Shown here: positions 21,526-38,700 of the stretch, piece after piece
How the letters are laid out: every line of letters starts with the position of its first letter
Numbering within the stretch: position 1 is the first letter of the stretch
Source of the DNA: Mesorhizobium zhangyense
GTDB taxonomy: Bacteria; Pseudomonadota; Alphaproteobacteria; Rhizobiales; Rhizobiaceae
DNA length: 64,000 nucleotides
Assembly: GCF_011045115.1 (NCBI RefSeq)
Contig: NZ_JAAKZG010000004.1
Location: forward strand, 248,001-312,000
Reading direction: 5' to 3'
Program-made: the position numbers and the translations under genes
The notes under the pieces: model-generated
What the model was told of the DNA's origin: nothing
What the model saw: only the letters and a program-made list of their open reading frames with translations
The model's database searches: none

Positions 21526-22470
21526 ATGATGAAGCGCACCTCGCCCCGTCAGGAACTCAAGAAGACCTGGTCGTCCATGTTCGAGACCGGACGGGGTGCG
21601 CGCATCTATCCTTATCTTATGGTACTGCCGGCAGTGCTTGTCGTTGTTGGCGTCGTGGTTTACCCGCTGGTCTACGGCATCCTTTCTGCGTTCTACGACG
21701 TAACGCTGAGGACGCTCGGCAGCGGCAAGATGAACTTTGTCGGCCTGCGCAATTTCGAGCGCGTCTTCGCCGATCCCGTCTTTCTTCAGGCATCGTGGAA
21801 CACACTGGTCTGGGTTGTCCTGAATGTCGTCGCCCAGCTGGGTCTCGGCCTGGCGCTGGCACTACTGCTGCATCGGGCCATACCCGGCATCGGCTTCTTC
21901 CGCTCCGGCATTCTCGTGCCATGGGTCGTGCCGAGTGTCGTTGCGGTGCTGACCTGGCGCTGGATGTATGATCCGAGCGTCGGCATCGCCAACGAATTGC
22001 TGCTGCGGCTGGGTATCATCGACGATTACCATCCCTGGCTTGGCGATACGGCGACGTCGCTTTACGCAGTGACGATAGAGAGCATCTGGAAGGGTACGCC
22101 GTTCGTCATGCTGCTGCTTCTCGCAGCGCTGCAACTCGTCCCGCGCTCCATCCTTGAAGCCGCATCCATGGACGGCGCCTCCGGCTGGCGCAAGCTGTGG
22201 CATGTGATCCTGCCGCAGATACGCGTTTCCTTCGCCATTGCCGCAGTGTTGACCTTCATCCTCACGGTCAACAACTTCAATGCGATCTGGCTGATGACGG
22301 AAGGTGGGCCGCTGAACTCGTCCGAGATCCTGTTCACGCTGGCCTATAAATACGGCTTCAAGCGCTTCGATCTCGGCATGGCATCGGCGGTCGCGACCAT
22401 GCTTTTCGTCGGTCTCGTCATCGCGACGACTATCTATCTCAAACTCATCCAGGCACGTGAGGGCGACTGA
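21526..22470 (+). CDS. Sugar ABC transporter permease (MalF/UgpA type)
   Basis: Inner-membrane permease of 314 residues with six predicted membrane segments and the EAA loop (LEAASMDGASGWRKLWHVILPQI). The N-terminus is cytoplasmic and basic; a second ATG three bases on is equally possible. It lies six bases after the binding protein and two bases before the partner permease, so the three are one transport unit. Confidence 0.92.
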   Translation: MMKRTSPRQELKKTWSSMFETGRGARIYPYLMVLPAVLVVVGVVVYPLVYGILSAFYDVTLRTLGSGKMNFVGLRNFERVFADPVFLQASWNTLVWVVLNVVAQLGLGLALALLLHRAIPGIGFFRSGILVPWVVPSVVAVLTWRWMYDPSVGIANELLLRLGIIDDYHPWLGDTATSLYAVTIESIWKGTPFVMLLLLAALQLVPRSILEAASMDGASGWRKLWHVILPQIRVSFAIAAVLTFILTVNNFNAIWLMTEGGPLNSSEILFTLAYKYGFKRFDLGMASAVATMLFVGLVIATTIYLKLIQAREGD

Positions 22471-22472
22471 CC

Positions 22473-23372
22473 ATGCAGATCGCCTCCATTCACGAACGCC
22501 CGACGAAAAGAGTCGCAATGCCGCGCATTCGATCTGGCTTGAGCCTGCCCAAGCCACTGGGCAAGTTTCTCACCTATGCCACCTTGTGGGTAGCCTTCGT
22601 CTGGTCGGTGTTTCCGTTCTACTGGATGATCGCAACCTCGATACGCGGCAAGGACGAGATATTCCAGCGGCCGCCAAACCTCGTGCCGCATGCCATTACG
22701 TTCCAGAACTACATCGATCTTCTGGTCGGTGCGCAGTTCTGGCGCTTCGCCCTGAACAGCCTCATCCTGACGATCAGCGTCACGATCATCAGCGTCCTCA
22801 TATCGGTGACGGCGGGATATGCCATGGCACGCCACCGCTTCAAGGGCTCGGTGATGCTGCCGTTGTTCATGCTCTATGGGCAGATGTTCCCGCCGGTGCT
22901 GCTGCTCATCCCCTTCTACGTCCAGCTTCGTTATCTCGGCTGGCTCGACAGTCTCTACGGCCTCATTCCGGTCTACCTCAGCTACATGCTGCCGCTCTGT
23001 GTCTGGTTGATGCGCGGGTTCTTCTCGCAGGTGCCGTTCTCTCTGGAAGACGCTGCCCGCATGGACGGCTGCACCCGCTGGCAGGCATTCTGGAAGGTCA
23101 TCCTGCCGATGGCGCGCCCAGGCATCGTCGCGGTCGCCACCTGGGTGATGATCCACACCTGGAACGAGTTCCTCTATGCCAGCACCTTCATCCTCAGCGA
23201 GAAGAAACGCACCCTGCCCCTCGGGCTCAGCGGGTTGATCGGCCAGTACACCACGGACTGGGGCGTGCTGATGGCCGGCGGCGTCATCACAGCCGCGCCC
23301 ATACTCATCGTCTTCTTCTTCCTGCAGAGACACCTCGTCTCGGGTGTCGGCGGTGGCGCGGTGAAGGGATGA
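22473..23372 (+). CDS. Sugar ABC transporter permease (MalG/UgpE type)
   Basis: Inner-membrane permease of 299 residues. It has the MalG-type opening (FPFYWMIATSI), the substrate-channel stretch NSLILTISVT, and the EAA loop (LEDAARMDGCTRWQAFWKVILPMARPG). It pairs with the permease just upstream. No ATPase gene follows; the MalK-type ATPase at 14488-15585 is the likely partner. Confidence 0.92.
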   Translation: MQIASIHERPTKRVAMPRIRSGLSLPKPLGKFLTYATLWVAFVWSVFPFYWMIATSIRGKDEIFQRPPNLVPHAITFQNYIDLLVGAQFWRFALNSLILTISVTIISVLISVTAGYAMARHRFKGSVMLPLFMLYGQMFPPVLLLIPFYVQLRYLGWLDSLYGLIPVYLSYMLPLCVWLMRGFFSQVPFSLEDAARMDGCTRWQAFWKVILPMARPGIVAVATWVMIHTWNEFLYASTFILSEKKRTLPLGLSGLIGQYTTDWGVLMAGGVITAAPILIVFFFLQRHLVSGVGGGAVKG

Positions 23373-23397: not shown

Positions 23398-24231
23398 ATG
23401 AGCGGTCGCAGCGCCCGCTGGGCGGATCTGACACGTCATGACTTCGCGTCGCTCGACAGCGACCGGACGATCGCCGTCCTGCCAATCGGTGCGATCGAGC
23501 AGCATGGTCCGCATCTGCCGGTTTCTGTCGATGCGGATCTTGTCGATGCGGTCGTCGAGCGCGCGTTGCCGCTAATTCAGTCCAACCTGACGGTTCTGTT
23601 CCTGCCGACCATGGTCTACGGCAAGAGCAACGAGCATGCGGCAATCGCCGGAACGCTCACGCTTTCTGCCGAAACGCTGATCCGGGTTCTCATGGAGATC
23701 GGCGAAAGCGTCGCATGCGCAGGCGTCCGCCGGCTCGTCTTTCTGAACGGGCACGGCGGCAATAGCCCGGTTCTCGACATCGTTGCCCGCGATCTCAAGG
23801 TCAAGTTCGGCCTGCAGACCGCAACCTGCCACTGGTACAATTTCAACGAGGCCGAAACGCTGAGGGACAAGACCGAGCAGGCATACGGCATCCATGCCGG
23901 ACTGGTCGAAACCAGCGCCATGCTGGCGATCAAGCCCGAGCGCGTCGTCATGGAACGAGCGGCGGATTTCGGCAACGCCGCGCAGGGCTGGCAGGAGAGC
24001 TATCGACATATCGGGCTTTCGGCAGGCCGTGCGAGACCAGCCTGGGAAATCGACGATCTCAACAAGGATGGAGCCTGCGGCAATGCCGCTGCCGCAACGG
24101 TCGAGATGGGCGAAAAGCTGCTTTCCACCACCGCCAGAAACTTCGCGGCATTCGTCTCCGAATTCGATCGCTTCTGCCGGGAAATGGATGTGGTCGGGCG
24201 GTCAGACGGGCAGGAAAAACGAGAGTCATGA
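23398..24231 (+). CDS. Creatininase-family metal-dependent hydrolase
   Basis: 277 residues of the creatininase/MftE/ArfB family, which holds two metal ions and hydrolyses or cleaves cyclic amide-type bonds. Metal ligands are visible in [20 protein letters not shown] (Glu, His, Asp) and in LNGHGGNS, with NEHA between them. GGAG lies seven bases upstream of the ATG. Family members act on creatinine, formamide intermediates of flavin synthesis or peptides; in a sugar locus the substrate may be a lactone- or lactam-like sugar derivative, which is inference. It overlaps the FAD-linked oxidase gene. Confidence 0.85.
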
Positions 24232-25658
24232 TGTCCATTTCAGGCAAATCGACGATCGATTGGCAGGCCTTCCGTCATGCGCTGGGCGCTGTCGACTCCT
24301 TCGACACGCCATCCATCGTCAAGAAGCGCTCCCGCGACTTCTTCTGGTACAGCCCGATCCTCAATCGCGAACTTGCCGGAAGTTTCGGCGATCTGGTTGT
24401 CGCACCAAAGAATATTTCCGAACTGGAAACCTGCATAGCCACAGCCGTCGAATGGAACGTGCCGACCGTCCTGCGCGGCGGCGGCACCGGCAATTACGGC
24501 CAGGCCGTGCCGATGGACGGCGGCCTCATCATAGACATGACTAGCATCAACCGTATCCTCGATATCGCCGAGACGACCGTGCACGTAGAGGCAGGCTGCA
24601 AGATCGGCGCGATCAATGAAGCTCTGCACGAGCAAGGCCGGGAACTGCCCATATTCCCTTCGACCGAAGCCATCGCCACGATCGGCGGCTTCATCGCCGG
24701 CGGTTCGGGCGGCATCGGATCGATCACCCACGGAATGCTGCGCGATGGCGGAAACATCGATTCGATCGAGGTTCTGTCGATGGAGAACCCGCCTCACCGG
24801 CATGTCTTCAAGGGCGACGATATCCGAGCGATCCATCACGCATGGGGGCTGAACGGTGTCATCACCGATCTGGTGTTGCGCACCGTTCCGGCGCGCAACT
24901 GGATCAACGTCATCGCTTCCTTCCCGACCTACTGCGAGGCCTTCGAGGCCGGCATCGCAGTGGGCAAGAGCCGGGGTTTCGAACTCAAGCTGCTGACGAC
25001 GATCGATGCGCGAATAGCAGGCTCCATACGTCGCCTGGACGGGATCGGCGGCAAAGGTCGCGCACTGCTGCTGGCGCTGGTGGACGACGCCGGCCAGGGG
25101 GAGCTGGCGAAGCTGGCAGAGGCGCAAGGCGGCACGATTGAACTCGCACTGGACCGGGATGCGATGGAAAAGGCTGGCCTGCCAGGCATGTCCGAGTTTT
25201 CCTATAACCACACGACCTTGCAGATTCTGAAAAACGATCGCAGCGTGACCTATCTGCAGGTGACCTTCAAAGCCCCGCTCGACAGTTCAAAGATCGATAC
25301 GCTGCAGGCGATATTCGGCGATGAGGTCCTGATGCATCACGAGTTTGCCCTGCTCAACGGCGAGCTTGTTGCCTTCGATCTGCCGGTCGTTCGCTACTCC
25401 AGCGACGAGCGTCTTTTCGAGCTGATGCGGATCTACGATGAACACGGTTGCCCGCCATCCAATCCGCATGTGCCCTATGTCGAAGGTGGATCGATGAAGC
25501 CGGATTTCCGCCACTTGGCCTGGAAGAAAAGGCTCGATCCGCACGGACTGCTCAACTCGGCCAAGTCACGTTACTGGAACGATGTGAAACACCTTTCGCC
25601 GGAAGAGATCGAGAAGCTGCCAGCCCGTCCGGCAATCGCGAAGGCAAGCGCGCGCTGA
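24228..25658 (+). CDS. FAD-linked oxidase (GlcD/VAO-type)
   Basis: 476-residue flavoprotein with a PCMH-type FAD-binding domain near residues 45-220 ([41 protein letters not shown]). The C-terminal part ends with [12 protein letters not shown], typical of the glycolate/lactate oxidase branch. Relatives oxidise 2-hydroxy acids, sugar alcohols or lactols. Start at the ATG at 24228 or the next one at 24231, overlapping the creatininase-family stop. It is the last gene of the plus-strand sugar operon and suggests an oxidative step on the imported sugar. Confidence 0.87.
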
Positions 25659-25681
25659 ACGTCTGGTGGCTGACATCCTGC

Positions 25682-26536
25682 TCAACCAAGCGTAAGTCCA
25701 GCCTTACGCGCCGCATCTCGCAGGAACGGCAGCCCAACCTCGATGACATCGTCCGGGTTCTCGTCGACCGAGCCCCACACGTCTGATTTGCCCGCAACAT
25801 CGGCGTCGACACGGTTCATGCTTTCGAGCGTGATCGGACCTTCATAGCCGACATCCGCCATGGCCTTGAACGCCGCGTCCCAATTCAGCATCCCTCTACC
25901 GGGCACACCCCGGTTGGCTTCCGAAACCTGGACATAGCCGAGATATGGGGCAGCGGTCTCCAAGACTGCGGCAAAGCTCTCTTCCTCGATATGCATGTGA
26001 TAGGTGTCGAGATGGATGAAGATGTTTTCCGCACCGATCCGCTCGATGATCCGAGCGGCATCAATGCCGCGATTGATCAGATGCGTTTCATAGCGATTGC
26101 ACGGCTCGATGCCGATTTTCACCCCATATGCTTTTGCAGTTTTTGCGGCCCGTTCCAGAAAACGACAGATGCTATCGATCTCCTTTTTCGTGCGTGCACG
26201 GCCGGTCGTCTTGCCGATGGCTCCATAAGTCATGCCGCCCAACCCGAAGCTGCCGACTTCCGCACAAACACGAAATGCCGACTCCAGGTATTCAAGCCCC
26301 TCTTCCGGCCGTTCGACAACATCCAGCGACGCGGGCAGTCCGAGCGAGGCAAACAACTCCACCTTGTAATGGGTAGCGAAGGACCGCGTTCGTTTGGTGT
26401 CGATTTCTTGGGGCCGAAACATTGGGATTTCGAGCAAGCCGACGCCGTGCTCCTTTAACCTGTCCATCTGCGGATCGATACGGGCGATATCCCATACCGG
26501 TGCAATGGCAAAAGTGTGGAGTCCGAAAGTGCTCAT
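25682..26536 (-). CDS. Sugar epimerase/isomerase, TIM barrel (D-tagatose/D-psicose 3-epimerase-like)
   Basis: 284-residue xylose-isomerase-like TIM barrel. Putative metal ligands are Glu in IGIEPCNRYE, Asp and His in FIHLDTYHMHIEE, and the C-terminal Glu in ITLESMNRVD, the pattern of ketose 3-epimerases. The LGGMTYG segment also fits that group. It converges on the oxidase gene with 23 bases between, so it probably has its own promoter. With the FucI-like isomerase and PfkB kinase it would complete an isomerise-epimerise-phosphorylate route; the actual sugar is unknown. Confidence 0.85.
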   Translation of the reverse strand: MSTFGLHTFAIAPVWDIARIDPQMDRLKEHGVGLLEIPMFRPQEIDTKRTRSFATHYKVELFASLGLPASLDVVERPEEGLEYLESAFRVCAEVGSFGLGGMTYGAIGKTTGRARTKKEIDSICRFLERAAKTAKAYGVKIGIEPCNRYETHLINRGIDAARIIERIGAENIFIHLDTYHMHIEEESFAAVLETAAPYLGYVQVSEANRGVPGRGMLNWDAAFKAMADVGYEGPITLESMNRVDADVAGKSDVWGSVDENPDDVIEVGLPFLRDAARKAGLTLG

Positions 26537-27027
26537 GCGTCAGCCTCTTTGTTCGTGCGCCGCGGCAGCACTTGTGTCACCGCCAACCGACGATGACTTG
26601 GTTCATATGTTGGCAGTCTTCAGATTGGCCTCCGCGCGGCCGATGGCATAGGAGGCCAAAACCCCAGTTGGACCGCCGACAAACGCGGTGAAAGCAATGC
26701 CGCAGCAGCCATACCGCCAAGCAATGCGGTAGGCAAACTCCAAAAATCGGGATGGCGATCCTGATGCCCATCGTCTCATAGGGGTCGGCACACCGACCAC
26801 CCGCCGCAAGCTCAGCGGCGGCCTCAACGGTTTAGAGCCGCGTTCATATCGCCGTTTACGCTCAGCAGGGAATCGGCGCGACGATAGAGCGGAGCGGATC
26901 AATGAATAATCTGGTCAAGGAAATACGGGGCACGCTCGGGCTGCGGCGCCGTGAAGAATTGCTCCGGTTCCGCCTGCTCGATGGATGCCATTTGAACGGC
27001 TGGTTGGACATGCCGGCGGGCGCAGGC
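26537..27027. other. Intergenic region without recognisable gene
   Basis: About 490 bases between the start of the epimerase-like gene and the end of the acyl-CoA synthetase gene. Short open frames on both strands have arginine- and cysteine-rich, unconserved-looking products. I see no convincing hairpin with a T-run, repeat or insertion-sequence end. It probably contains the epimerase promoter and the end of the long minus-strand operon. Confidence 0.5.
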
Positions 27028-28821
27028 TTAAGCGGTCTTGGCTTGCTGCAGGCCGAGCTCGGCGATCATCGTCTCCCGCATCTTGAACTTCTGCGCCTTG
27101 CCGGTGACGGTCATCGGCAGTTCCGCGACGAAGCGCACATAGCGAGGCACCTTGTAGTGGGCGATCTGGCCGCGGCAGAAGGCACGCAGCTCTTCCTCCG
27201 TCGCGGTCTGGCCAGAGCGCAACACGACCCAGGCGCAGATTTCCTCGCCGTATTTTTCGTCGGGCACACCGAACACCTGAACCTGCTCGACCTTGGGATG
27301 GCGGTACAGATACTCCTCGACTTCGCGGGGATAAACATTCTCGCCGCCGCGGATGAGCATGTCCTTTACCCGACCGACGATGTTGCAAAACCCGTCGGCG
27401 TCGATGGTGGCAAGGTCGCCGGTATGCATCCAGCCGGCTGGATCGATCGATTGCTTGGTAAGTTCCTCGTCGTTCCAGTAGCCGCGCATGACCGAATAGC
27501 CACGTGTGCAGAGTTCGCCGGGGACGCCGACCGCAACGGTCGAGCCGGTTTCGTCGACCAGCTTGACCTCGACATGGGGATGGACGCGGCCAACGGTCGA
27601 GACGCGGCGGTCGAGCGGATCGTCGACATTGCTCTGGAACGACACCGGGCTGGTCTCGGTCATGCCGTAGGCAATCGTCACCTCGCTCATATGCATGTCG
27701 GAGACGACACGCTTCATCACTTCGATGGGACAAGGAGAACCGGCCATGATGCCGGTGCGCAAGCTGGACAGGTCGAATTCGAAGAAACGCGGATGCTCCA
27801 GCTGAGCGACGAACATCGTCGGCACGCCGTAAAGCGCGGTGCAGCGCTCGCTGCTGACGGCTTCGAGCACGCTGACAGGCTCAAAACCTTCCCCCGGGAA
27901 AATCATGGTCGCGCCGTAGCTCACCGCGCCCATCACGCCCATCACCATGCCGAAGCAGTGATAAAGCGGGACGGGAATGGCAAGGCGGTCCTGCTCGGTG
28001 AGGCGCATCGTGCCGGTGACGAAGCGGGCGTTGTTGACGATGTTGCGGTGGGTCAGCGTCGCGCCCTTCGGCGCGCCGGTGGTGCCGCTGGTGAACTGGA
28101 TGTTGATCGGGTCGTTGACAGAGAGACTGGCGGTTATGCCGTCGAGCTTCAGCCGGTCGCGGGCGCTCCCCTTCTCCGACACCTCGTCGAAACCCAGCAT
28201 GCCGGGCATCGGCTCGGAACCCATGGCAATGACGATGCGCAGGCTGGGCAGCCGCGCGGCATGCAGCTTGCCCGGGGCCGCATCGTCGAGTTCGGGCGCC
28301 AGTTGACGCAGCATGCCGACATAGTCGCTCGACTTGAATGTGGGAGCGAGGACCAGGGCGACGCAGCCGACCTTGTTCAGCGCATATTCGAGCTCGGTGA
28401 CGCGGTAGGCCGGATTGATGTTGACGAGGATCGCGCCGATGCGGGCAGTGGCGAACTGCGTCAGAATCCATTCGGCGCGGTTCGGCGCCCAGATGCCGAC
28501 GCGGTCGCCGGCCCTGATGCCGAGCGCCAAAAGCCCTGCCGCAAATGCGTCGACGCGCCGGTCCAGTTCCTGATAGGTCCAGCGCAGGCCCTGCTCGCGA
28601 AACACGGCTGCCTCTCGCTGGCCATGACGGGCGACCGTCTGCTTGAGAAGCTGCGGAATGGTCAGGTCCCAGAGCGGCGCTTCGGTGTCTCCGCTGACAT
28701 GGGCTTGCCCGGCGGCAGGCTTGCGTCCGCTTTTTCTGCCTATACCAGCCGCGCCAGCGTCGTCGGCCAGGGCCCGCAGTGCCGAAATCGGCTGCTTAAG
28801 GTCGTTGATGGTGCGAGCCAT
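27028..28821 (-). CDS. Acyl-CoA synthetase (AMP-forming)
   Basis: 597-residue ATP-dependent acid:CoA ligase of the ANL superfamily, activating a fatty or aryl acid through an acyl-adenylate. The P-loop [21 protein letters not shown], the hinge stretch [27 protein letters not shown] and the catalytic lysine region [11 protein letters not shown] are all present. A GGAGG site precedes the ATG at 28821. The first 45 residues, before the [11 protein letters not shown] stretch, are an unusual extension. It starts 24 bases after the ATPase-amidase gene and is the last gene of the amide operon, so it probably activates the acid released by the amidase. Confidence 0.92.
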
Positions 28822-28845
28822 GGTTTCCTCCCCAAAAGGCGATCG

Positions 28846-31200
28846 CTACATACTACGCCAATCGCCCGACTGTTCGAAAGCGTGAGCGGCGCGATAGATT
28901 GTGCTTTCCTCGTAGAAACGGCCAATCAACATCATGCCGACCGGCAAGCCGTCGATCATGCCGCACGGCACGCTCATTGCCGGATGGCCAGACGCATCGA
29001 AAGCAGACGTGTTGGGGATCATCTCGAAGGCGCGCTGTATCTGCAACGCCAGCGGCGCGTCCGCAGGCGGCAGAGGCGGCGCTTTCATCGGCACGGTCGG
29101 CATCAGCAGCAGATCGTAGGATTTGAGCGCCTCGTCATAGGTCGCCCGCAGCAGGCGGCTGAGATTCTGCGCCTTGGCGTAGAAGCGGCCACGGTAATAG
29201 CTCTGCATGTATTCGCCGACGAACATCGAGATCTTCAGCGTCTTCGACAATTCGTCGGCGCGGGCGCGCCAGTTGGAATGGGCGTCGAGCAGGCTGGTGA
29301 CGTAGAGCCCTTCCCAGTTCGTGCCGAAACCGTTGCCATGCATCATCAGATCGGTCAGGCCCTCGAGCGCGATCGGCGTCCAGATGACCTGACCGTCGCG
29401 ATGCATGGGGATCGACGTTTCCTCGACCTGCGCGCCGAGGCTGCGCAGCCTGTCAGCGGCAACCCGCACCTTGCGGTCGACCTCGGCCTCGCTCGATGGC
29501 CAGCCGAAACCCTCGCGGACGATACCGATGCGCAGGCCCGAAACGCCGCGGCCGAGCGCCTGCGTGTATTTGTCGACGCGCGGCGCGTATTGACGGGGGT
29601 CGAGCCCGTCGGCCCCGGCGATGACTTCAAGCAACAGCGCATTGTCGGCGACATTGGCTGTGATCGGCCCGGCATGGTCGATGGTGATTTCGATCGGCAT
29701 GATGCCGGAATAAGGCACGAGCCCGTGCGTTGCCTTCATGCCATAGGCACCGCAGAAGGCGGCAGGCATGCGGATCGAACCGCCCTGGTCGCAGCCGATC
29801 GCCATTTCGACCTCGCCCGCCCCGACAAGCGCGCCTGAGCCGGAAGACGAGCCGCCTGAGGTATGACCCATCCTGTGCGGATTGTGGACCGGCCCGGTCG
29901 CATTGGTATGGCTGCCCCCGGACAGGCAGAAATACTCGCAATGCGACTTGCCGACGATGGTACCGCCAGCGTCGAGGATGCGGGTTACGATGGTGGCGTC
30001 CAGATCGGGCGTATAGCCCTCCAGCGTCGAGGCACCGTTCATCATCGGCACGCCGGCAAGGCAGATATTATCCTTGAGCACGATCTTGCGGCCTTCGAGC
30101 GGACCGCTGACGGCGCCGCGCACCTCGCATTTGTAGTACCACGCGTTCATTGGGTTTTCGGCCGCCGAAGGGCGATAGCCGGGCGTGCGCGGATATTTCA
30201 CCTTGGGCAGGTAATCGGGAAGCTGATCGATCCGGTCATAGGCCAGGAACGAACCTTCCATGAGCTGCATGTAGGCGACGATCTCCTCGTCGGAGAGATG
30301 CATATGCAATCCGCGAACGACATCCTTCATCTGGTCGAGGGTTGGGCGGCGGACGGTCATGTAGCTCTCCCTGTGAGCGGGCGACGCCATCTGTGCTGCG
30401 GCAGCGGATGGCGTATGCGATTTGATCTGGGCCGAGACAGGCTGCACGCCTGACGCCGGCAAGCCGGGTTTTGGCGACGATGCGCGGCCGCGGCCAAAGC
30501 CCATGAAGCTTTCAATTTCCGCGCTACTGGCGTCGTGGCCCGTCGGGTCGGGGATCTCGCCACGCTCCATGACGACCAGCCGGTCGCAGACATCGGTCAG
30601 GAATTCGAGGTTCTGCTCCACAACCAGGATGGTCAGCCCGGTCTCCTTGCGGATGCGGTTCAGGGTTTCGGCCATCTCCTGGATGATCGACGGCTGGATG
30701 CCCTCGGTCGGCTCGTCGAGCAGGACGACAGAGGGTTCCGCCGCCAGGCAGCGTGCGAGCGCCAGAAGCTGCTGCTCGCCGCCGGACAAGGCGCCTCCCG
30801 GCCGGTCCAGAAGCCGTTCGAGGCGCGGGAAATCGGCAACGGCATTGGCGACCGCCTCCTCCGCATCGCTTGAAGCGCAATCCCGGTTCCAGGCGATCCT
30901 GATGTTGTCGCGAACCGACAAATGCGGGAAGATGCCCCTGCCCTGCGGGACGTAGCCAATGCCGAGACGGCCACGCTCGAAGGGTGCAAGCCGCGTGATG
31001 TCGTCGCCGTCGAATCTGACATGCCCGGCCGTCGCAGGCAGATAGCCCATGAGGGTCTTCAAAAGCGTCGATTTGCCCATGCCGTTTTGGCCGAGCACGC
31101 CGACGGATTCGCCTTCACTGATCATCAGCGAGACGCCGCGCAGGATCTGGATATCGCCATAGCCTCCGGTCAGGCCATCGACCGCCAAAAGCGCGCTCAT
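28846..31200 (-). CDS. LivF/UrtE-type ABC ATPase fused in frame to an amidase
   Basis: One open frame of 784 residues. Residues 1 to about 237 are a branched-chain amino acid/urea-type ATPase: Walker [10 protein letters not shown], signature LSGGEQQLL, Walker [12 protein letters not shown], then VVEQNLEF. A linker of about 40 residues rich in Ala, Ser and Pro leads into a 504-residue amidase-signature enzyme. The amidase triad is intact: Lys in IVLKDNI, the cis-Ser in GGSSSGS and the nucleophile in [11 protein letters not shown]. It resembles the Rhodococcus enantioselective amidases ([25 protein letters not shown]). An internal ATG at 30360 with GGGAGAG upstream could also yield free amidase. 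The start overlaps the upstream ATPase gene. Confidence 0.87.
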
Positions 31201-31910
31201 AGGCTTCTCCCGAGATAGACATCGCGCACCAGAGGGTCCTCCAGCACATCCTCCACCGGGGCCTGCGCGATAACGCGGCCCTGGTGAAAAACAGTGACGG
31301 TCTCCGCAATCTGGCGGATGAAATGCATGTCGTGCTCGACGACGATCAGCGTGGCGTGCTCGACAAGGCCGCGCAGGATGCCGACCATGCGCTCGACCTC
31401 CTCGCCGGAGAGGCCAGCGGCCGGCTCGTCGAGCAGGATCAGCCACGGCTTGGCAGCAAGCACGATGGCAAGTTCCACCAGCTGGCGCTGGCCGTGCGAC
31501 AATTGTCCGACCAACTCGCGCCGAAGATCGGCGATGCCGACGGCCTCCAGTGCCTGGAGCGTCCCGGCGTTTGCATCGCCGCTCCTGCGCCGCGCCGCTA
31601 GCCAGACATTCTCATGCACGGAAAGCCCGTTCATGACGCTCGGCACCTGCGTCTTGATGCCGACGCCGAGACGTGCGAGCCGATGCGGCCCAAGCCCTGA
31701 AACGGGCTCACCGCGCAAATAGACCTGGCCGTCGCTTGGTTGCAGCATGCCGGTGAGGCATTTGAAGAAGGTGCTTTTCCCCGCGCCGTTCGGCCCGATC
31801 AGGCAACGCAGTTCGCGCTCGCGCAAGGCGAAGTCGACGCGATCGACGGCGGTGACGCCGCCGAAGCGGACCGTCAGCCCGTTGGTTTCAAGCACGACCT
31901 CACCCGGCAT
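31197..31910 (-). CDS. LivG/UrtD-type ABC transporter ATPase
   Basis: ATPase of a branched-chain amino acid/amide/urea importer, 237 residues from the ATG at 31910, which overlaps the end of the permease gene; a GTG four codons earlier is possible. Walker [10 protein letters not shown], signature LSHGQRQL, Walker [14 protein letters not shown] and the switch histidine in VVEHDMHFI are present. The [15 protein letters not shown] loop resembles UrtD/FmdE more than classical LivG. It forms a heterodimer with the ATPase half of the next gene. Confidence 0.9.
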
Positions 31911-32940
31911 TGGACACTGCACGCTTGCGCCGTCTTTGGCGGCGGGATTTCTTCGACGATGGCCGGCGCAAGCCAGCCTTCATGAAGCGCGCGACCGTCG
32001 GGACAAGTCCCTCCTGAAGGAACAGCACGACGACGATGAGCAGGACCCCCATGATGAAGGAATTGTCGACCGCCGACTGATGGCCAAGCACGAATTTGAG
32101 ATAGCCGAGAAGGGCAGCGCCGATCATCGGGCCGATCAGCGTGCCGAGCCCACCGACGATAACCCAGATGATGATCTCGGCGGACTGGCCGAGGCTGAAC
32201 AGGCCGGGCGTGACGATCTCGGCCCAATTGGCGAACAGGCAGCCGGCAAGGCCGGCGAGACCACCGCTGAGCGCAAAGGCTGCGGATTTGTAGAAGCGCA
32301 CGTCATAGCCGAGAAGCTCGGTACGTTCCTCGTTTTCGCGCAACGACACAATGATCCGGCCGAAGGGCGAGAGCAGCGTCAGGCGAAGGCCGAGATAGAC
32401 CAGCGCAAGCAGGGCAATCGTGAAATAGAAAAGGCCGGCGCCATAGATATAGGTGCCCGGATCACCGGGCACGGTCAGCGTGGGGAAGCCGGGTATGCCG
32501 TTGAAGCCGCCAAGCCGGGCCTCGCCGATGCGATAGGTTGGCCCGGCGGTCGAATTGAAGAATTTGAACAGGATCAGCGTCACCACCAGCGTGACGACAG
32601 CGAGATAGACATCGCTCAGCCGGCCATAAAACATCAACGCACCGAGCAGTCCGGCGAACACTGCCGGCACCAGGATGGCGAGCGCGAAAGCAGCCCAGGC
32701 GCCATTAAAATTGATTGCCGCCAATGCATAAGTGTAGGCGCCGAGGCCATAGAATGCCGCCTGACCGAAGCACAATATGCCGCCGAACCCCCAGATGAAA
32801 CCGAGGCTGAGCGCCAGCATCGCATAGATGGTGAGCAAGGTGGCGGTGTGGACGTCGACGATGAATGGCAGGACAAGCGCACAGACCAGCGTGCCGACCA
32901 GGACCCGCCCTGCCTCCATCATGAGGATGCGGGAATTCAT
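31900..32940 (-). CDS. LivM/UrtC-type ABC transporter permease
   Basis: Inner-membrane permease, 346 residues, with about nine hydrophobic segments and the LivM-type pattern (LSLGFIWGFGGILCFGQAAFYGLGAYTYAL region, and GGLAGLAGCLFANW). The C-terminal tail after residue 320 is very basic. Start and stop overlap the neighbouring genes, so translation is coupled across the operon. It forms the channel with the LivH-like protein. Confidence 0.92.
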   Translation of the reverse strand: MNSRILMMEAGRVLVGTLVCALVLPFIVDVHTATLLTIYAMLALSLGFIWGFGGILCFGQAAFYGLGAYTYALAAINFNGAWAAFALAILVPAVFAGLLGALMFYGRLSDVYLAVVTLVVTLILFKFFNSTAGPTYRIGEARLGGFNGIPGFPTLTVPGDPGTYIYGAGLFYFTIALLALVYLGLRLTLLSPFGRIIVSLRENEERTELLGYDVRFYKSAAFALSGGLAGLAGCLFANWAEIVTPGLFSLGQSAEIIIWVIVGGLGTLIGPMIGAALLGYLKFVLGHQSAVDNSFIMGVLLIVVVLFLQEGLVPTVARFMKAGLRRPSSKKSRRQRRRKRAVSNAG

Positions 32941-33806
32941 CAGGTCCAGCCCTTGAAAAAACGGCCGGTGATGCCGACCGGCATGAGCCGAAGCAGCACC
33001 ACCGCGGCGACGAGTAGGGCTATCTCGCCGCCTACCGAACTCGTGACAAGGGTGAATATCTGAGAGATCGAACCGAACAGCCCCGCGCTGGCGATCGTTC
33101 CGGTGACGACCGAGGCGCCGCCGGAAATGACGGTGATGAAGGCCTTGGCGATGTAGTTCGCGCCGCTGCCGGGGCTCAGCCCGACGAGCGGAGCAAGGAG
33201 CGCGCCAGCAAGTCCGCTAAGCGCCGCACCGGCAGCGAATGTCGTCATATAGACATGCGAGATGTTCAGCCCGAAGGCCTGTGCCATGTCGGGCCGCTGC
33301 ATGGCCCCGCGCGCTATCAGCCCGGCGCGCGTGGCTTTCAGCACGATGTATATGACGAGCATGACAAGTGCCGCCGCGGCAATGAGGAACAGGCTATAGC
33401 CGCCGATCTGGTAATTGCCGACCGTCAGCCCACTGAGCGGGTTCGGGATGCCGGTCATGGTATTGCCGAAGATCATCGAGAACGCCCCGGTCATTGCCAG
33501 GCTGAGGCCCCAGGTCGCCAGCATGGTGTTGATGAGCCGGCCATAGAGCCAGCGCACCACCAGCCGCTCGACGATCAGACCCCAGAGCCCGACCACCACA
33601 GGGGCCAGAACCAGCATGCAGAAATAAAGGTTCAGTCCGCTGCGATGGCCGAGAATGGCGACATAGCCGCCAAGCGTCAGGAACTCGCCATGCGCCAGGT
33701 TGATGACGCGCATCATGCCGAAAATGACGGCGAGGCCGGAGCTGATCAGCACCAGCACCGCGATGGAATGCAATATCTCGACGGTGACGACGACGGCGAA
33801 ATCCAT
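32940..33806 (-). CDS. LivH/UrtB-type ABC transporter permease
   Basis: Inner-membrane permease, 288 residues. The LivH signature INLAHGEFLTLGGYVA and RPDMAQAFGLN are present along with eight or so hydrophobic stretches. It overlaps the LivM-like gene and follows the binding-protein gene by 12 bases. Together with its partners it forms a complete importer. Confidence 0.92.
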   Translation of the reverse strand: MDFAVVVTVEILHSIAVLVLISSGLAVIFGMMRVINLAHGEFLTLGGYVAILGHRSGLNLYFCMLVLAPVVVGLWGLIVERLVVRWLYGRLINTMLATWGLSLAMTGAFSMIFGNTMTGIPNPLSGLTVGNYQIGGYSLFLIAAAALVMLVIYIVLKATRAGLIARGAMQRPDMAQAFGLNISHVYMTTFAAGAALSGLAGALLAPLVGLSPGSGANYIAKAFITVISGGASVVTGTIASAGLFGSISQIFTLVTSSVGGEIALLVAAVVLLRLMPVGITGRFFKGWT

Positions 33807-33818
33807 GTGATGCGCTGC

Positions 33819-35042
33819 TCAGATGTCGATTTCGTATTGCTTGTTGTCGTCGGGATTGGCCTTCAGGTCGCAGAATTTCTGGGTGTCGATCGGCTGACGC
33901 TGGCTGAAGCTTTTTATGACGGAAAGCGACTGGTCGCGGATTTCCATCAGCTGCATGTCGAGCACGGCGTGGTGGGTCTGCGGGTCGATTGCGATCTTTC
34001 CCGACGGGCCATCGATGCCGATGCCGCTTTCGAGCGCCTCGATGACCGGGTCATGATCGACGGTGTTGGCCTTCTTGACCGCCTCGGCCCACAAATGGAT
34101 GCCCTGATAATTGTTGACGGCGAATTCGTTGATCGTCGCGACATCGCCGAAACGCGTCTTCCACTTGTCGAGAAAAGCCTTGTTGGCCGGGATGTCGATG
34201 CTGGGCGACCAGCTGTAGGCGACCATGATGCCGTTGCCCTCCTGCGGGGTCAGCACCAGATGCTCGTTACCGGATCCGAGCGTGGACGAGGCAAGCGGAA
34301 TGCGGTCCTTCATGCCGGACGCGGCCCACTGGCGGTAGAAGGACAGATGCGCGCCGCCGACGAGTGCGGACAGAACGAGATCGGGTTTTGCTTCCTGGAT
34401 CTTGGCAATCGTCGCGCCGAAGTCGGACACGTCGAGCGGGAAGAATTCGGTGGCGAGCACCTCGCCGCCATTCTCGCCGACATAATGGCTCATCCATTTC
34501 GCGGTGATCTGGCCGTAATTGTAGTCGGCGGCCAGCACGTAGACTTTCTTGCCAAACTTCTCGATCGCTGCCGGTATCAGCACTTCGATCTGCTGGGCGG
34601 GCGTGATGCCGGTGCAGACGATGTTGCGGTCGCAGACGCCGCCTTCGTAGAGCACGTTGTAGAAATAGGGAACGTTGGCCTTGCGCAGCGTCGGCCGGAT
34701 CGCCTCTCGCGATGCCGAAAGAATGCCGCCATGGACGACATGCACCTTGTCGGAGCGGACAAGCTGCTGGGCGAACTGGGTATAGAGCGCCATGTCGGAC
34801 TGGGTGTCGTAGGAAACCTTTTCGATCTGACGGCCGAGCAGGCCGCCGGCAGCGTTCAGCTCTTCGACGGCAAGCGTCGCGGCCATGTCCATCGGCTTGC
34901 CATAGGCGTCGAAGATGCCTGACACGTCGAGGATCGATCCCAGCTTGATCGGATCGCCGCTCTGCGCGCGCAAAATGGACGGTAGCGAAAGTGCGCCGGC
35001 CATAGCGGCGGTCGTAGCGAGAAAATGTCTGCGGTTGATCAT
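33819..35042 (-). CDS. Amide/urea-type ABC transporter substrate-binding protein
   Basis: 407-residue periplasmic binding protein of the Leu/Ile/Val-binding fold, nearest in style to UrtA and the short-chain amide protein FmdD. The N-terminus INRRHFLATT with the following hydrophobic stretch and RAQSG is a twin-arginine-like signal. Typical parts are GSILDVSGIFDAYGKPMDMAATLAVEE-like sequence, YDTQSDMALYTQFAQQL and YFYNVLYEGGVCDRN. The amidase fused to the transporter ATPase argues for an amide as ligand. The start overlaps the flotillin-like gene (ATGA). Confidence 0.9.
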   Translation of the reverse strand: MINRRHFLATTAAMAGALSLPSILRAQSGDPIKLGSILDVSGIFDAYGKPMDMAATLAVEELNAAGGLLGRQIEKVSYDTQSDMALYTQFAQQLVRSDKVHVVHGGILSASREAIRPTLRKANVPYFYNVLYEGGVCDRNIVCTGITPAQQIEVLIPAAIEKFGKKVYVLAADYNYGQITAKWMSHYVGENGGEVLATEFFPLDVSDFGATIAKIQEAKPDLVLSALVGGAHLSFYRQWAASGMKDRIPLASSTLGSGNEHLVLTPQEGNGIMVAYSWSPSIDIPANKAFLDKWKTRFGDVATINEFAVNNYQGIHLWAEAVKKANTVDHDPVIEALESGIGIDGPSGKIAIDPQTHHAVLDMQLMEIRDQSLSVIKSFSQRQPIDTQKFCDLKANPDDNKQYEIDI

Positions 35043-36655
35043 GACGCCTGTTCCCTCTTGTTTGATTTCTGTCGGCGTGGACGCGCGGAGGCATCTCCCC
35101 CATCGCCGTTGCCCTGGTCGAGGTCGAGATTGAGGCCGATCGACTGGCCGAGCTTCTGCATAGCGGGAAGCTGCAAGGCGAGGTTGAGCACGCCATCGAC
35201 GGCGCCGCCGATCGGCGATTGCGAACCGCCGGCGCCGTCGTGGCCGCCCCCACCCAGGCCGAGACCCGAAATATGGTTGATACGAATCGAGTCGATCTTC
35301 TCCAGCGGTTTCGCCATACGTTCGGCGAGGTCGGGAAGCCGGTCGATCTTGTGCATATCGAGCTTCATGCGCATCAGCGCCTCGCTCTGCTGGTTCTCTG
35401 CCGCAAACAGCGCGCGCTGCGCTTCAGTCTCCGCAGCACTTTCATGACGGCGCCCAGTGGCGCGCAGTTCGGCAGCTTCCGCTTCGCCGCGGGCCGTCTC
35501 GACCAGCGAGGCCGCGGTGCCTCGGGCCCGCTCTCCGGAGGCCTCGGTCGCGTGCCTGGCGCGGATCAAGGCCGCCGCCCCTTCGCGCTCCGCCACCAGC
35601 CGGTCGCGCTCGGCCTGCAGGCCTTCCTGCGCCTCGATCACCGCAACGCGCCCGCGTTCGGCTTCGGCCTGGACTGCGACTTCCTCGATGCGCTTGCGGG
35701 CAAGCGCGATCTCGCCGTCGATCTTGGCGGTCTCTGCGGCGAGCAGCGCCTCGACTTCGGACTGCCTTAGCTGCAGGTCACTGCCGATCTCGGCAAGGCG
35801 CAGATCGCGCGTGCGTTCGATACGGGCCTGCTCGGCGGCGCGTTGCGCGCCCTGGCGCACAGTTTCCGTCTGCGACTCCGTATCGGCCCGCAGCCGGTCG
35901 AGCGTCAGCCGCTGCGCGATCTCGGCCTCCTGCTGCTCACGCTCAATATCGAGCCGGCGCTTGACGGCGGCAAGGTCGGTCTGGCGCACGGCAAGGTCGG
36001 CCTCAGCCTCGATCTCGGCGCGCCGCTTGCGGTTCTCCGTGATCACCTCGGCCAGCCTGCGCATGCCGACGGCGTTGAAGGCGTTGTTCTGGTCGAGCGC
36101 GGCGAAGGCCGCTTGATCGAGGCGGATCAGCGAGACGGATTCCAGGTGGAGGCCGTTCTGCTTGAGGTTTTCGGCCAGGGCATCCCGCACCGCCTTTACG
36201 AATGCGCCGCGCCGCTCGTGCAGCGCCTCCATCGTATAGGCTGCGACGATCGCCTGGACGGCATCGATGAAGCGGCCTTCGAAGAGATTGCCGATTTCGT
36301 CAGGCCGCAACGCACGGGCACCAAGCGCCTGCGCGGCGGTCGCGACACCATCCACGGTTGGCTCGACGCGGAGGTAAAATGCCATTTCGACATCGACGCG
36401 CAGCCGATCCTCGGTCATCAGCGACTTTTCGCCGGCCCGCTTGATCTCGATGCGCATGGTGCGCATCGGAATTTCTTCCATGCGGTGCAGGAAGGGCAGC
36501 GCGATGAAGCCGCCATCCATCACCACCTTCTGTCCACCAAGGCCGGTTCGCAGCAACGCTTTCTCGCGGGTTGCCTTGCGATAATAACGCTGCAGGAAAG
36601 CCACGACGATGATGATGGCGACGATGATGGCTATCAAGGAGAGCAAAAGCGTCAT
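35039..36655 (-). CDS. Flotillin-like SPFH-domain membrane protein (YqiK type)
   Basis: 538 residues. A single N-terminal membrane helix (residues 3-21) is followed by an SPFH/band 7 domain to about residue 190, then a long Ala/Glu/Arg-rich coiled coil to about 430, and a Gly-rich tail. Bacterial flotillins organise membrane microdomains and scaffold membrane complexes. Here the gene overlaps and precedes the binding protein of an ABC importer, so it is translated as the first gene of the amide operon. A CAGGAAA site stands upstream of the ATG. What it scaffolds is not shown by the sequence. Confidence 0.88.
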   Translation of the reverse strand: MTLLLSLIAIIVAIIIVVAFLQRYYRKATREKALLRTGLGGQKVVMDGGFIALPFLHRMEEIPMRTMRIEIKRAGEKSLMTEDRLRVDVEMAFYLRVEPTVDGVATAAQALGARALRPDEIGNLFEGRFIDAVQAIVAAYTMEALHERRGAFVKAVRDALAENLKQNGLHLESVSLIRLDQAAFAALDQNNAFNAVGMRRLAEVITENRKRRAEIEAEADLAVRQTDLAAVKRRLDIEREQQEAEIAQRLTLDRLRADTESQTETVRQGAQRAAEQARIERTRDLRLAEIGSDLQLRQSEVEALLAAETAKIDGEIALARKRIEEVAVQAEAERGRVAVIEAQEGLQAERDRLVAEREGAAALIRARHATEASGERARGTAASLVETARGEAEAAELRATGRRHESAAETEAQRALFAAENQQSEALMRMKLDMHKIDRLPDLAERMAKPLEKIDSIRINHISGLGLGGGGHDGAGGSQSPIGGAVDGVLNLALQLPAMQKLGQSIGLNLDLDQGNGDGGDASARPRRQKSNKREQAS

Positions 36656-36976: not shown

Positions 36977-38065
36977 CTAGGAAAAGCTCTCGATGATCCG
37001 GAAGTTGTAGCCGTGGGCCTCCGCCAGATAGGTCGGAGCGCGGCTTTCCTGGGCGAGATCGTAATAGCCGCCACGCACGCCTTCGCCGCCGATGGCGCGC
37101 GCCGGCCGACGCCAGCCGCCGCCTTCGGACGACCGCGACAGCGTGTCGAGAAAGCGCATGCCTTCATACAGGCCCTGGCCGATCGTGTTCAGCGTCGGCC
37201 CGCTCTCGCCGTAACGGCTGTAATAGCGCTCGCGGAAGGAATCGTTGCCACGATTTTCGAGCGCGCCGAAATAGCCCGAAGCAACAAAAAGCCTTTCGAG
37301 ATTGGCATTGCCGATGGCCAACAGCATGTTTTCCTCGATGGCGCAGGAAAACCTTGCGATCGACGCGGAGAGTCCCGAAGCGCCAAAGGCGCGGTTGAAA
37401 TGGACCGCATCCTCGCCCACCACGGACAGCAGCACAGCGTCTGGCTTCAGCGATTTCACACGTTCGAGAATGTTGCCGAAGCGGCTGGTGCCAAAGGGCA
37501 CGTAGATTTCGTCCAGAATTTCATGGCCACGACGGCGAAAATGATGACGCACGATGCGGTGCGTGGTGCGCGGCCAGACATAGTCGTTGCCGATCAGCAC
37601 CCAGCGCCGTGCGTTCAAGTGCTCAGCCAGCCAGTCGATGCCCGGCAGCAACTGGCGTGCCGGGGTCTCGCCTATGCAATAGACACCACGCCCCACTTCG
37701 CCGCCTTCATAGAGCGGAGTGTAGACATAGGGAACACGCCCGGCGATGCGATTTGCAACCGCGGTGCGCACATCGGACGTATGCATGCCGACCAGCGCAT
37801 CCAGCTGGCCGTTTTCGAGCATTTCCTGCGCTGCCTCGGCGACCTCCTCGCCGGAGCGCCCGGCATCGACGATCCTGAGCACGATCTCCCTGCCCTGCAG
37901 ACCGCCAAAAGCATTGATCTCCGCTGCCGCCAGTTCGGCACAGGATCGGCATGACGGTCCCCAGATGCCAGCCGCGCCGCTGACCGGGATGAAAAGTCCG
38001 ACGTCTATCTGATTGCGTCGGCGCGAATTTATGACGCGATCGCCCTGCTTCCAGGAGCGGCTCAT
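36977..38065 (-). CDS. AmiC/UrtA-like cytosolic binding protein (probable amide sensor)
   Basis: 362-residue periplasmic-binding-fold protein related to the transporter's own binding protein (shared PYVYTPLYEGGEVGRGVYCIGETPARQL-type region) but with no signal peptide, so it should stay in the cytosol. That is the arrangement of AmiC, the amide-sensing repressor of the Pseudomonas amidase operon. Binding-fold segments include GLFIPVSGAAGIWGPS, INAFGGLQGREI and HEILDEIYVPFGTSRF. GAGGAG lies nine bases before the ATG. No AmiR-type antiterminator is nearby; the divergent MarR gene may be the partner regulator, which is inference. Confidence 0.8.
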   Translation of the reverse strand: MSRSWKQGDRVINSRRRNQIDVGLFIPVSGAAGIWGPSCRSCAELAAAEINAFGGLQGREIVLRIVDAGRSGEEVAEAAQEMLENGQLDALVGMHTSDVRTAVANRIAGRVPYVYTPLYEGGEVGRGVYCIGETPARQLLPGIDWLAEHLNARRWVLIGNDYVWPRTTHRIVRHHFRRRGHEILDEIYVPFGTSRFGNILERVKSLKPDAVLLSVVGEDAVHFNRAFGASGLSASIARFSCAIEENMLLAIGNANLERLFVASGYFGALENRGNDSFRERYYSRYGESGPTLNTIGQGLYEGMRFLDTLSRSSEGGGWRRPARAIGGEGVRGGYYDLAQESRAPTYLAEAHGYNFRIIESFS

Positions 38066-38202: not shown

Positions 38203-38231
38203 TTGCCGAGGAAACAAAAAAGTTCTATTCT
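38203..38231 (+). promoter_or_regulatory. Candidate promoter of the MarR gene
   Basis: TTGCCG and TATTCT separated by exactly 17 bases end 35 bases before the MarR start codon, in the 200-base divergent region shared with the AmiC-like gene. Each box matches the sigma-70 consensus at four of six positions. Confidence 0.4.
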
Positions 38232-38265
38232 GGTTAGACATTCATCAAAGCGCATACGTAAAGTC

Positions 38266-38700
38266 ATGTCCAACGCTGCCAATACCCTTAAGTTGCCTGA
38301 TCTTCTCGCTCGTGTTCATCGGGAGATTTATATCGATCTCAGCCGGATACTGTCCGAGGATGACGGGCTGCCGGTCGAGCAGTGGCGGGTTCTCTCGATC
38401 CTTGCCGCGGAAGACGGCCTGTCGATGAGCGATCTTTCCGAGCGGGCGTTCATGACAATTTCGGCCCTGTCGAAGAATATCGACCGCATGGTGTTTCGCG
38501 CCCTGGTGCATCGCCGGCAGGACAGCGGCGACCAGCGCCGCGTCCTGACCCACATCACGTCTTTCGGCCGCGAGATGCTGCGCAACCGCACACCTGCCGT
38601 CGAACGCTTCTGCAATGACCTTTCCGAAGCGCTGGGGCCGCGGGATTCGCAGCAACTTGAGACGCTGCTGCGCGCCGTTCTTGCCGTTCGCGGAAACTGA
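38266..38700 (+). CDS. MarR-family transcriptional regulator
   Basis: 144-residue winged-helix regulator from the ATG at 38266; a TTG 63 bases earlier would add 21 lysine- and arginine-rich residues and overlap the predicted promoter. The DNA-binding part is QWRVLSILAAEDGLSMSDLSERAFMTISALSKNIDRMV-like sequence, followed by the wing (HRRQDSGDQRRVL). MarR proteins bind short palindromes as dimers and are released by small aromatic or phenolic ligands. It lies between the amide operon and the amine oxidase operon and may control both. Confidence 0.88.
   Translation: MSNAANTLKLPDLLARVHREIYIDLSRILSEDDGLPVEQWRVLSILAAEDGLSMSDLSERAFMTISALSKNIDRMVFRALVHRRQDSGDQRRVLTHITSFGREMLRNRTPAVERFCNDLSEALGPRDSQQLETLLRAVLAVRGN

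Follow-up and report, generated by a model that had tools for sequence, protein, structure and literature searches.

The window considered here is a stretch of 64,000 nucleotides from Mesorhizobium zhangyense (contig NZ_JAAKZG010000004.1). On its minus strand lies a gene of 784 codons plus a stop (28846-31200; ATG at 31200-31198, stop codon at 28848-28846) which, based on its open reading frame and on Pfam and NCBIfam matches, fuses a UrtE-type ATPase to an amidase. A check of the frame from 31200 to 28849 found an uninterrupted 784-amino-acid ATPase::amidase protein without any internal stop, so that the single frame running through the junction, as described in the original prediction, is borne out. 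In the direction of transcription, the operon consists of genes for an AmiC/UrtA-like protein, a flotillin, a binding protein, two permeases, UrtD, the fusion, and an acyl-CoA ligase.

The ABC ATPase domain (residues 1-235, 30496-31200, minus strand; Pfam, NCBIfam) and the amidase-signature domain (residues 281-784, 28849-30360, minus strand; Pfam, NCBIfam, and alignment) are the only domains detected by Pfam in the fused chain (ABC_tran at residues 20-165, 112.5 bits; Amidase at residues 362-768, 297.6 bits), and neither peptidase nor transmembrane domains were found by Pfam. The NCBIfam amidase model PRK07235 covers residues 281-783 with 810 bits, exceeding its cut-off of 545, and the ATPase part scores 253.4 bits with the UrtE model, under the cut-off of 285.8; the two databases agree with the earlier assignment of a LivF/UrtE-type ATPase and an amidase-signature enzyme to one frame. 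All the motifs of the ATPase domain (Walker A K43, signature S139, Walker B D162/E163, and switch Q196, Q being usual for LivF at the switch position) are intact in the 53 fused proteins that are readable from the start codon, two further fused proteins (L025 and L083) having been excluded for want of a readable start. The Lys-Ser-Ser triad, correctly predicted to be intact in the window's protein, corresponds to K376, S451, and S475 and is likewise kept in 53 of 53. Residues 308-777 align with the closest solved enzyme, the amidase 3a1k/3a1i, catalytic serines included, and S475 is aligned with a residue for which PDB chain 3a1k has Ser and 3a1i has Ala. The conservation of the triad bears on the reading that the amidase domain is mainly a sensor, which would slow the ATPase when product or substrate builds up: the C-terminal placement of the added domain on the ATPase fits such a role, and regulatory C-terminal domains are present in other importer ATPases such as MalK and MetN, but a pure sensor would tolerate loss of the triad, which makes this reading improbable. 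An AlphaFold model of the fusion built with 12 sequences was poor (amidase mean pLDDT 57.6, pTM 0.38) and uninformative on docking, and no structural claim is based on it.

Upstream of the fusion and on the same strand are genes for a UrtD-like ATPase (31197-31922; NCBIfam), whose TGA and the start codon of the fusion gene share bases (ATGA), a UrtC/LivM-like permease (31900-32940) and a UrtB/LivH-like permease (32940-33806; both by Pfam and NCBIfam), and a substrate-binding protein with a weak Tat-signal match (33819-35042; Pfam, NCBIfam, and solved relatives). According to Pfam and NCBIfam, this single operon contains the set of a urea-type/branched-chain (HAAT) importer, with binding protein, two permeases, and two ATPases. 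The scores with the urea models fall under the NCBIfam cut-offs not only for the UrtE-type part but also for UrtD (226.1 vs 304.1), UrtC (264.3 vs 575.55), UrtB (238.8 vs 374.25), and the binding protein (364.2 vs 494.8). Since this holds for all five subunits, we do not call the importer a urea transporter. Next to these genes are a flotillin with SPFH/Band_7 and C-terminal Flot domains (35039-36655, minus strand; Pfam) and an AmiC/UrtA-like binding protein without a signal peptide evident by eye (36977-38065, minus strand; domain matches), which is probably an amide sensor. The solved relatives of both binding proteins include 8tg1, urea-binding proteins, and AmiC; in the case of the AmiC/UrtA-like protein, AmiC (1pea) is matched at E 3.1e-21, but with a lower score than 8tg1 and the solved urea-binding proteins. 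No AmiR antiterminator (ANTAR domain) was found in the window operon, which has a divergent MarR-family regulator gene instead (38203-38700, plus strand; domain matches). Downstream of the fusion, the acyl-CoA ligase (27028-28821, minus strand; NCBIfam) belongs to the PRK12583 family (889.8 bits, cut-off 832). A 978-codon frame on the plus strand (26902-29838), antisense to the ligase and the amidase, is most likely the mirror frame of GC-rich coding DNA. Further along, a putative creatininase-like gene (judged by eye) lies with genes for a sugar isomerase-like protein and an FAD-binding oxidase (23398-26536) beside sugar ABC permease genes (21526-23372); none of these has an evident connection to the amidase operon.

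Homologues were searched in whole genomes using the linker plus the amidase as query. At the family level, 52 of 394 genomes gave a match (E 1e-80); with E 1e-150, the numbers were 36 of 397 for the order, 45 of 385 for the class, and 21 of 398 for the phylum. Unfused amidases are among these matches, and the four samples partly overlap. The one other genome searched from the window's genus gave no match, and phage records contained no match. Altogether, 127 loci with a relative were collected, including those of named genomes and plasmids, of which 116 were distinct after removal of 11 with identical amidases. Among these, 55 are fused in frame, 24 have a separate ATPase gene just upstream, 31 have no adjacent ATPase, and six are cut by a contig end. 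The fused loci span 14 family codes and 29 genus codes (44 of the 55 loci are coded) in addition to named genomes, and their distribution is patchy. They include Zhengella mangrovi (L071), a Ferrovibrio MAG (L076), plasmids of Sulfitobacter alexandrii and Sulfitobacter sp. THAF37 (L089 and L090), and the Osedax symbiont Rs1 (L088), whose gammaproteobacterial assignment rests on a MAG.

The junction search proposed with the original prediction has thus returned a conserved fusion in many genera. The opposite outcome, in which all close relatives would have separate genes or a frameshift would have been missed, is absent: of the best 30 family loci, 25 are fused in frame, one is separate, and four are cut near the junction, one of which (L025) was later read as fused. 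A missed stop, a frameshift, or an assembly artefact can be dismissed with near certainty, as the 55 distinct fused homologues, annotated plasmid records among them, exclude a sequencing error. Two unfused arrangements were also noted among the relatives. L100 and L135 (genome G836), apparently one gene region, have a divergent amidase with 68% identity, no adjacent ATPase, and a frame of more than 1000 codons, and L142, in a genome region shared with L134 and L103, is a separate-gene operon with two different amidases flanking the importer genes, one before and one after them.

Phylogenetic trees were built for both domains by quick searches without bootstrap. The six cut rows group with the 55 fused ones as one clade of the amidase tree, with an SH-aLRT of 91, which is below the 95 mark, and a single change of state is found once the cut rows are excluded. 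The ATPase-domain tree, which also took 24 separate ATPases and six other LivF-type ATPases of the same genome and gave a warning for long branches among the outgroup, places the 53 fused rows in one clade with an SH-aLRT of 96, above the mark. As the fused rows form one clade in both trees, a single old fusion that has been retained is indicated, and as no fused row lies among the unfused ones, no return to separate genes is seen. Judged from these trees, the fusion is one ancient event that has been kept across the whole clade.

The linker between the two domains covers residues 236-280 (30361-30495, minus strand), as delimited by sequence comparison and by pLDDT, which is below 50 at residues 234-283 of the AlphaFold model. 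A joining linker had been predicted with 40 residues, close to the measured length of about 45. Across the fused relatives, linkers are highly variable in sequence and range in length from 31 to 105 amino acids; Ala, Pro, Ser, Arg, Gly, and Thr abound in them, and their 3244 residues include no Trp or Cys. Because loci were called fused by their frame, a linker length in multiples of three would be a circular criterion, and substitutions were used instead. In an amino-acid-guided alignment, pN was lower than pS in 44 of 45 overlapping linker pairs, the exception having one substitution; this kind of alignment favours low pN, and the test was therefore repeated on nucleotides. In the nucleotide alignment of 13 non-overlapping close pairs, in which 11 of 17 gaps were multiples of three and six were not, the 444 in-phase substitutions were distributed over codon positions 1, 2, and 3 as 127, 105, and 212 (chi-square p 4e-10, with substitutions taken as independent). 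From this excess at the third position we conclude that the linker evolves as translated coding sequence, under a constraint that is weaker than in the ATPase or amidase domain, as expected for a flexible tether. This result is relevant to the idea that the parts are separated after translation by proteolysis of the linker, or that nearly all amidase comes from an internal start, so that the fusion itself matters little. A long, disordered-looking linker and a kept internal start would suit it; stops in the linker would then be harmless, yet the frame has been kept open and its codons constrained, and we regard this explanation as very unlikely.

The internal start is an ATG at 30360-30358 (minus strand), at the beginning of the amidase, which is preceded at a distance of 6 nt by the Shine-Dalgarno-like AGGGAG (30367-30372, minus strand; identified from the sequence and its relatives). 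Each of the 61 rows, fused or cut, has an ATG where the amidase begins. The 17 nt upstream pair with the anti-Shine-Dalgarno sequence with a mean of -7.0 kcal/mol in 43 rows (p 6e-14) and -5.4 kcal/mol in a deep group of 18 rows (p 1e-4), compared with a mean of -3.3 kcal/mol at 1608 control Met codons located elsewhere in frame within the amidases; the rows are related by descent, which makes these p values too small. Of 36 representatives sharing less than 90% identity, 23 have the ribosome-binding site within the strongest tenth of their own linker, whereas in five it has a rank above 0.3 and does not stand out from the remainder of the linker; among these five, L043 has no pairing whatever at the internal start. 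An absence of the site from the 61-64% group was considered and ruled out, a GGTGA-type site being present in many of its members. The residues preceding the internal Met vary by lineage, yet the ribosome-binding site is retained in most. The kept ATG and ribosome-binding site suggest that free amidase is probably made besides the fusion owing to selection on the internal start, which lends support to the earlier proposal of an internal ATG with its own ribosome-binding site at 30360; alternatively, the site may have been inherited from an unfused amidase gene.

The comparison of gene neighbourhoods covered 36 of the 55 distinct fused loci and 20 of the 24 separate ones (all but L109, L110, L130, and L131). 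In four of the 20 (L143, L145, L148, and L149), the ATPase is more distant (36-41% identity) and the genes are arranged differently, leaving 16 close comparisons. By tblastn, a flotillin is present in the operon of all 36 fused loci and in none of the 20 separate ones. A profile built from the 36 flotillins, which is no test for those 36 themselves, likewise found none in the 20 separate loci at E values up to 1. The gap between the AmiC-like and binding-protein genes measures 84-390 nt in nine separate loci versus 1746-1988 nt in 26 fused loci, and it is this widened gap that the flotillin occupies; the AmiC-like gene is missing in ten of the 36 fused loci. In the window's genome, the flotillin is the sole protein with a Flot domain, and both its domains score above the Pfam cut-offs (SPFH/Band_7 68.4 bits, Flot 100.6 bits), although it is under the FloT equivalog cut-off. 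The acyl-CoA ligase (at least 50% identity) shows a similar pattern, being present in 31 of 36 fused and 0 of 20 separate loci; it is missing in four fused loci with room for it, and the fifth (L082) ends at a contig edge. Two fused operons without the ligase (L154 and L155, of family code f18, which they share with L156) have a second amidase gene directly downstream, with 54-55% identity. As the fused loci form one clade, the association with flotillin and ligase reflects shared history rather than many independent gains, and the fusion, the flotillin, and the ligase may each have been gained once.

Taken together, we moderately favour the view that the operon encodes an importer for an amide, most likely a carboxylic acid amide, whose UrtE-type ATPase carries the amidase that hydrolyses the imported amide. 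The binding protein and permeases would take up the amide, and the amidase domain, held by its flexible linker to the cytoplasmic ATPase, would hydrolyse it near the channel exit. The acyl-CoA ligase would then trap the acid as its CoA ester, the ammonia being used by the cell; the neighbouring ligase suggests an acid that needs CoA activation and hence, by inference, an amide larger than acetamide. The link with amides comes from the closest solved enzyme, the amidase 3a1k/3a1i, from AmiC being one of the solved relatives found for both binding proteins, and from a Paracoccus operon of separate genes in which the amidase is neighboured by an ANTAR-domain gene and a binding protein. Additional free amidase from the internal start may dimerise with the tethered copies, the flotillin would gather the importers in membrane patches, and the AmiC-like protein and MarR would control expression. 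The operon content makes it plausible that what is imported serves the amidase as its substrate, with uptake and hydrolysis coupled at the membrane, and the fusion together with an adjacent membrane-organising flotillin suggests that uptake and digestion are physically linked. On the other hand, the separate-gene relatives presumably work without a fusion.

A rival explanation is that the fusion is a frozen accident of co-expression, in which both parts work but the tether provides no coupling and the linker only prevents mutual hindrance. The great variability of the linker in sequence and length and the existence of separate-gene operons with the same importer and amidase are in its favour. 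However, the fusion has been kept in all 55 readable members of the clade (six more are cut), and no reversion is seen even though the kept internal start would make it easy; the linkage of the flotillin with the fusion is also against an accident, and we therefore consider it rather unlikely. Returning to the amide importer with a motor-borne amidase, a stronger form may be put forward only tentatively: the operon might encode a fixed uptake-and-digestion unit, in which pairs of tethered and free amidase cross-link importers, the dedicated flotillin gathers them in patches, and the amide is drawn inward and prevented from leaking by hydrolysis and CoA activation where it leaves the channel. 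If true, such a unit would be an ABC version of group translocation. Most work has treated importers separately from the enzymes acting on their cargo; here the two are joined in one chain, a join that has been kept through long divergence together with a dedicated flotillin. The locus offers a simple genetic system for asking whether uptake by an ABC importer is altered when an enzyme is placed at its exit and what role a bacterial flotillin plays for a defined partner.

Several known systems resemble parts of this arrangement. The closest solved enzyme, which we take to be the amidase of Rhodococcus sp. N-771 acting on aliphatic and aromatic amides, is a stand-alone protein, whereas the window's amidase is fused to an ATPase. 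The UrtABCDE and LivFGHMJ importers have the same five-part layout, and the ATPases, permeases, and binding protein of the window match these models; the differences from UrtABCDE are that the UrtE-type subunit carries an enzyme and that the curated urea cut-offs are not reached. AmiE belongs to the nitrilase superfamily, an enzyme family other than that of the amidase signature. In the parts of one report that were available, amiE is described with amiC, amiR, and ABC genes, and urtABCDE beside amiE and fmdA (PMC13209695). Like the window, the ami operons of that report combine in one locus an ABC importer of the urea type with an enzyme that hydrolyses amides, and their AmiC-type sensor probably has its counterpart in the window's AmiC/UrtA-like protein; but their genes are described as separate, flotillin is nowhere mentioned in the paper, and the available parts describe no fusion (PMC13209695). 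In Paracoccus, a relative with separate genes has its amidase followed by genes for a binding protein and an ANTAR-domain protein, as in ami operons. Both fused Sulfitobacter proteins are annotated (RefSeq-based) just as "amidase", and no report of an ATPase-amidase fusion was found among the full-text literature matches listed, as judged by titles and the openings of abstracts. To our knowledge, the nearest idea in print is that of the PCATs. As far as the parts of the two sources that were available go, these share with the fusion a hydrolase that acts on the cargo within the transporter chain, but they are exporters whose peptidase removes a secretion signal, whereas the window has an importer ATPase with a catabolic amidase (PMC6959990, PMC8794836). 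Viewed against all these systems, the locus appears to be a new arrangement of an importer type and an enzyme that are both known, one that is ancient and linked to a flotillin.
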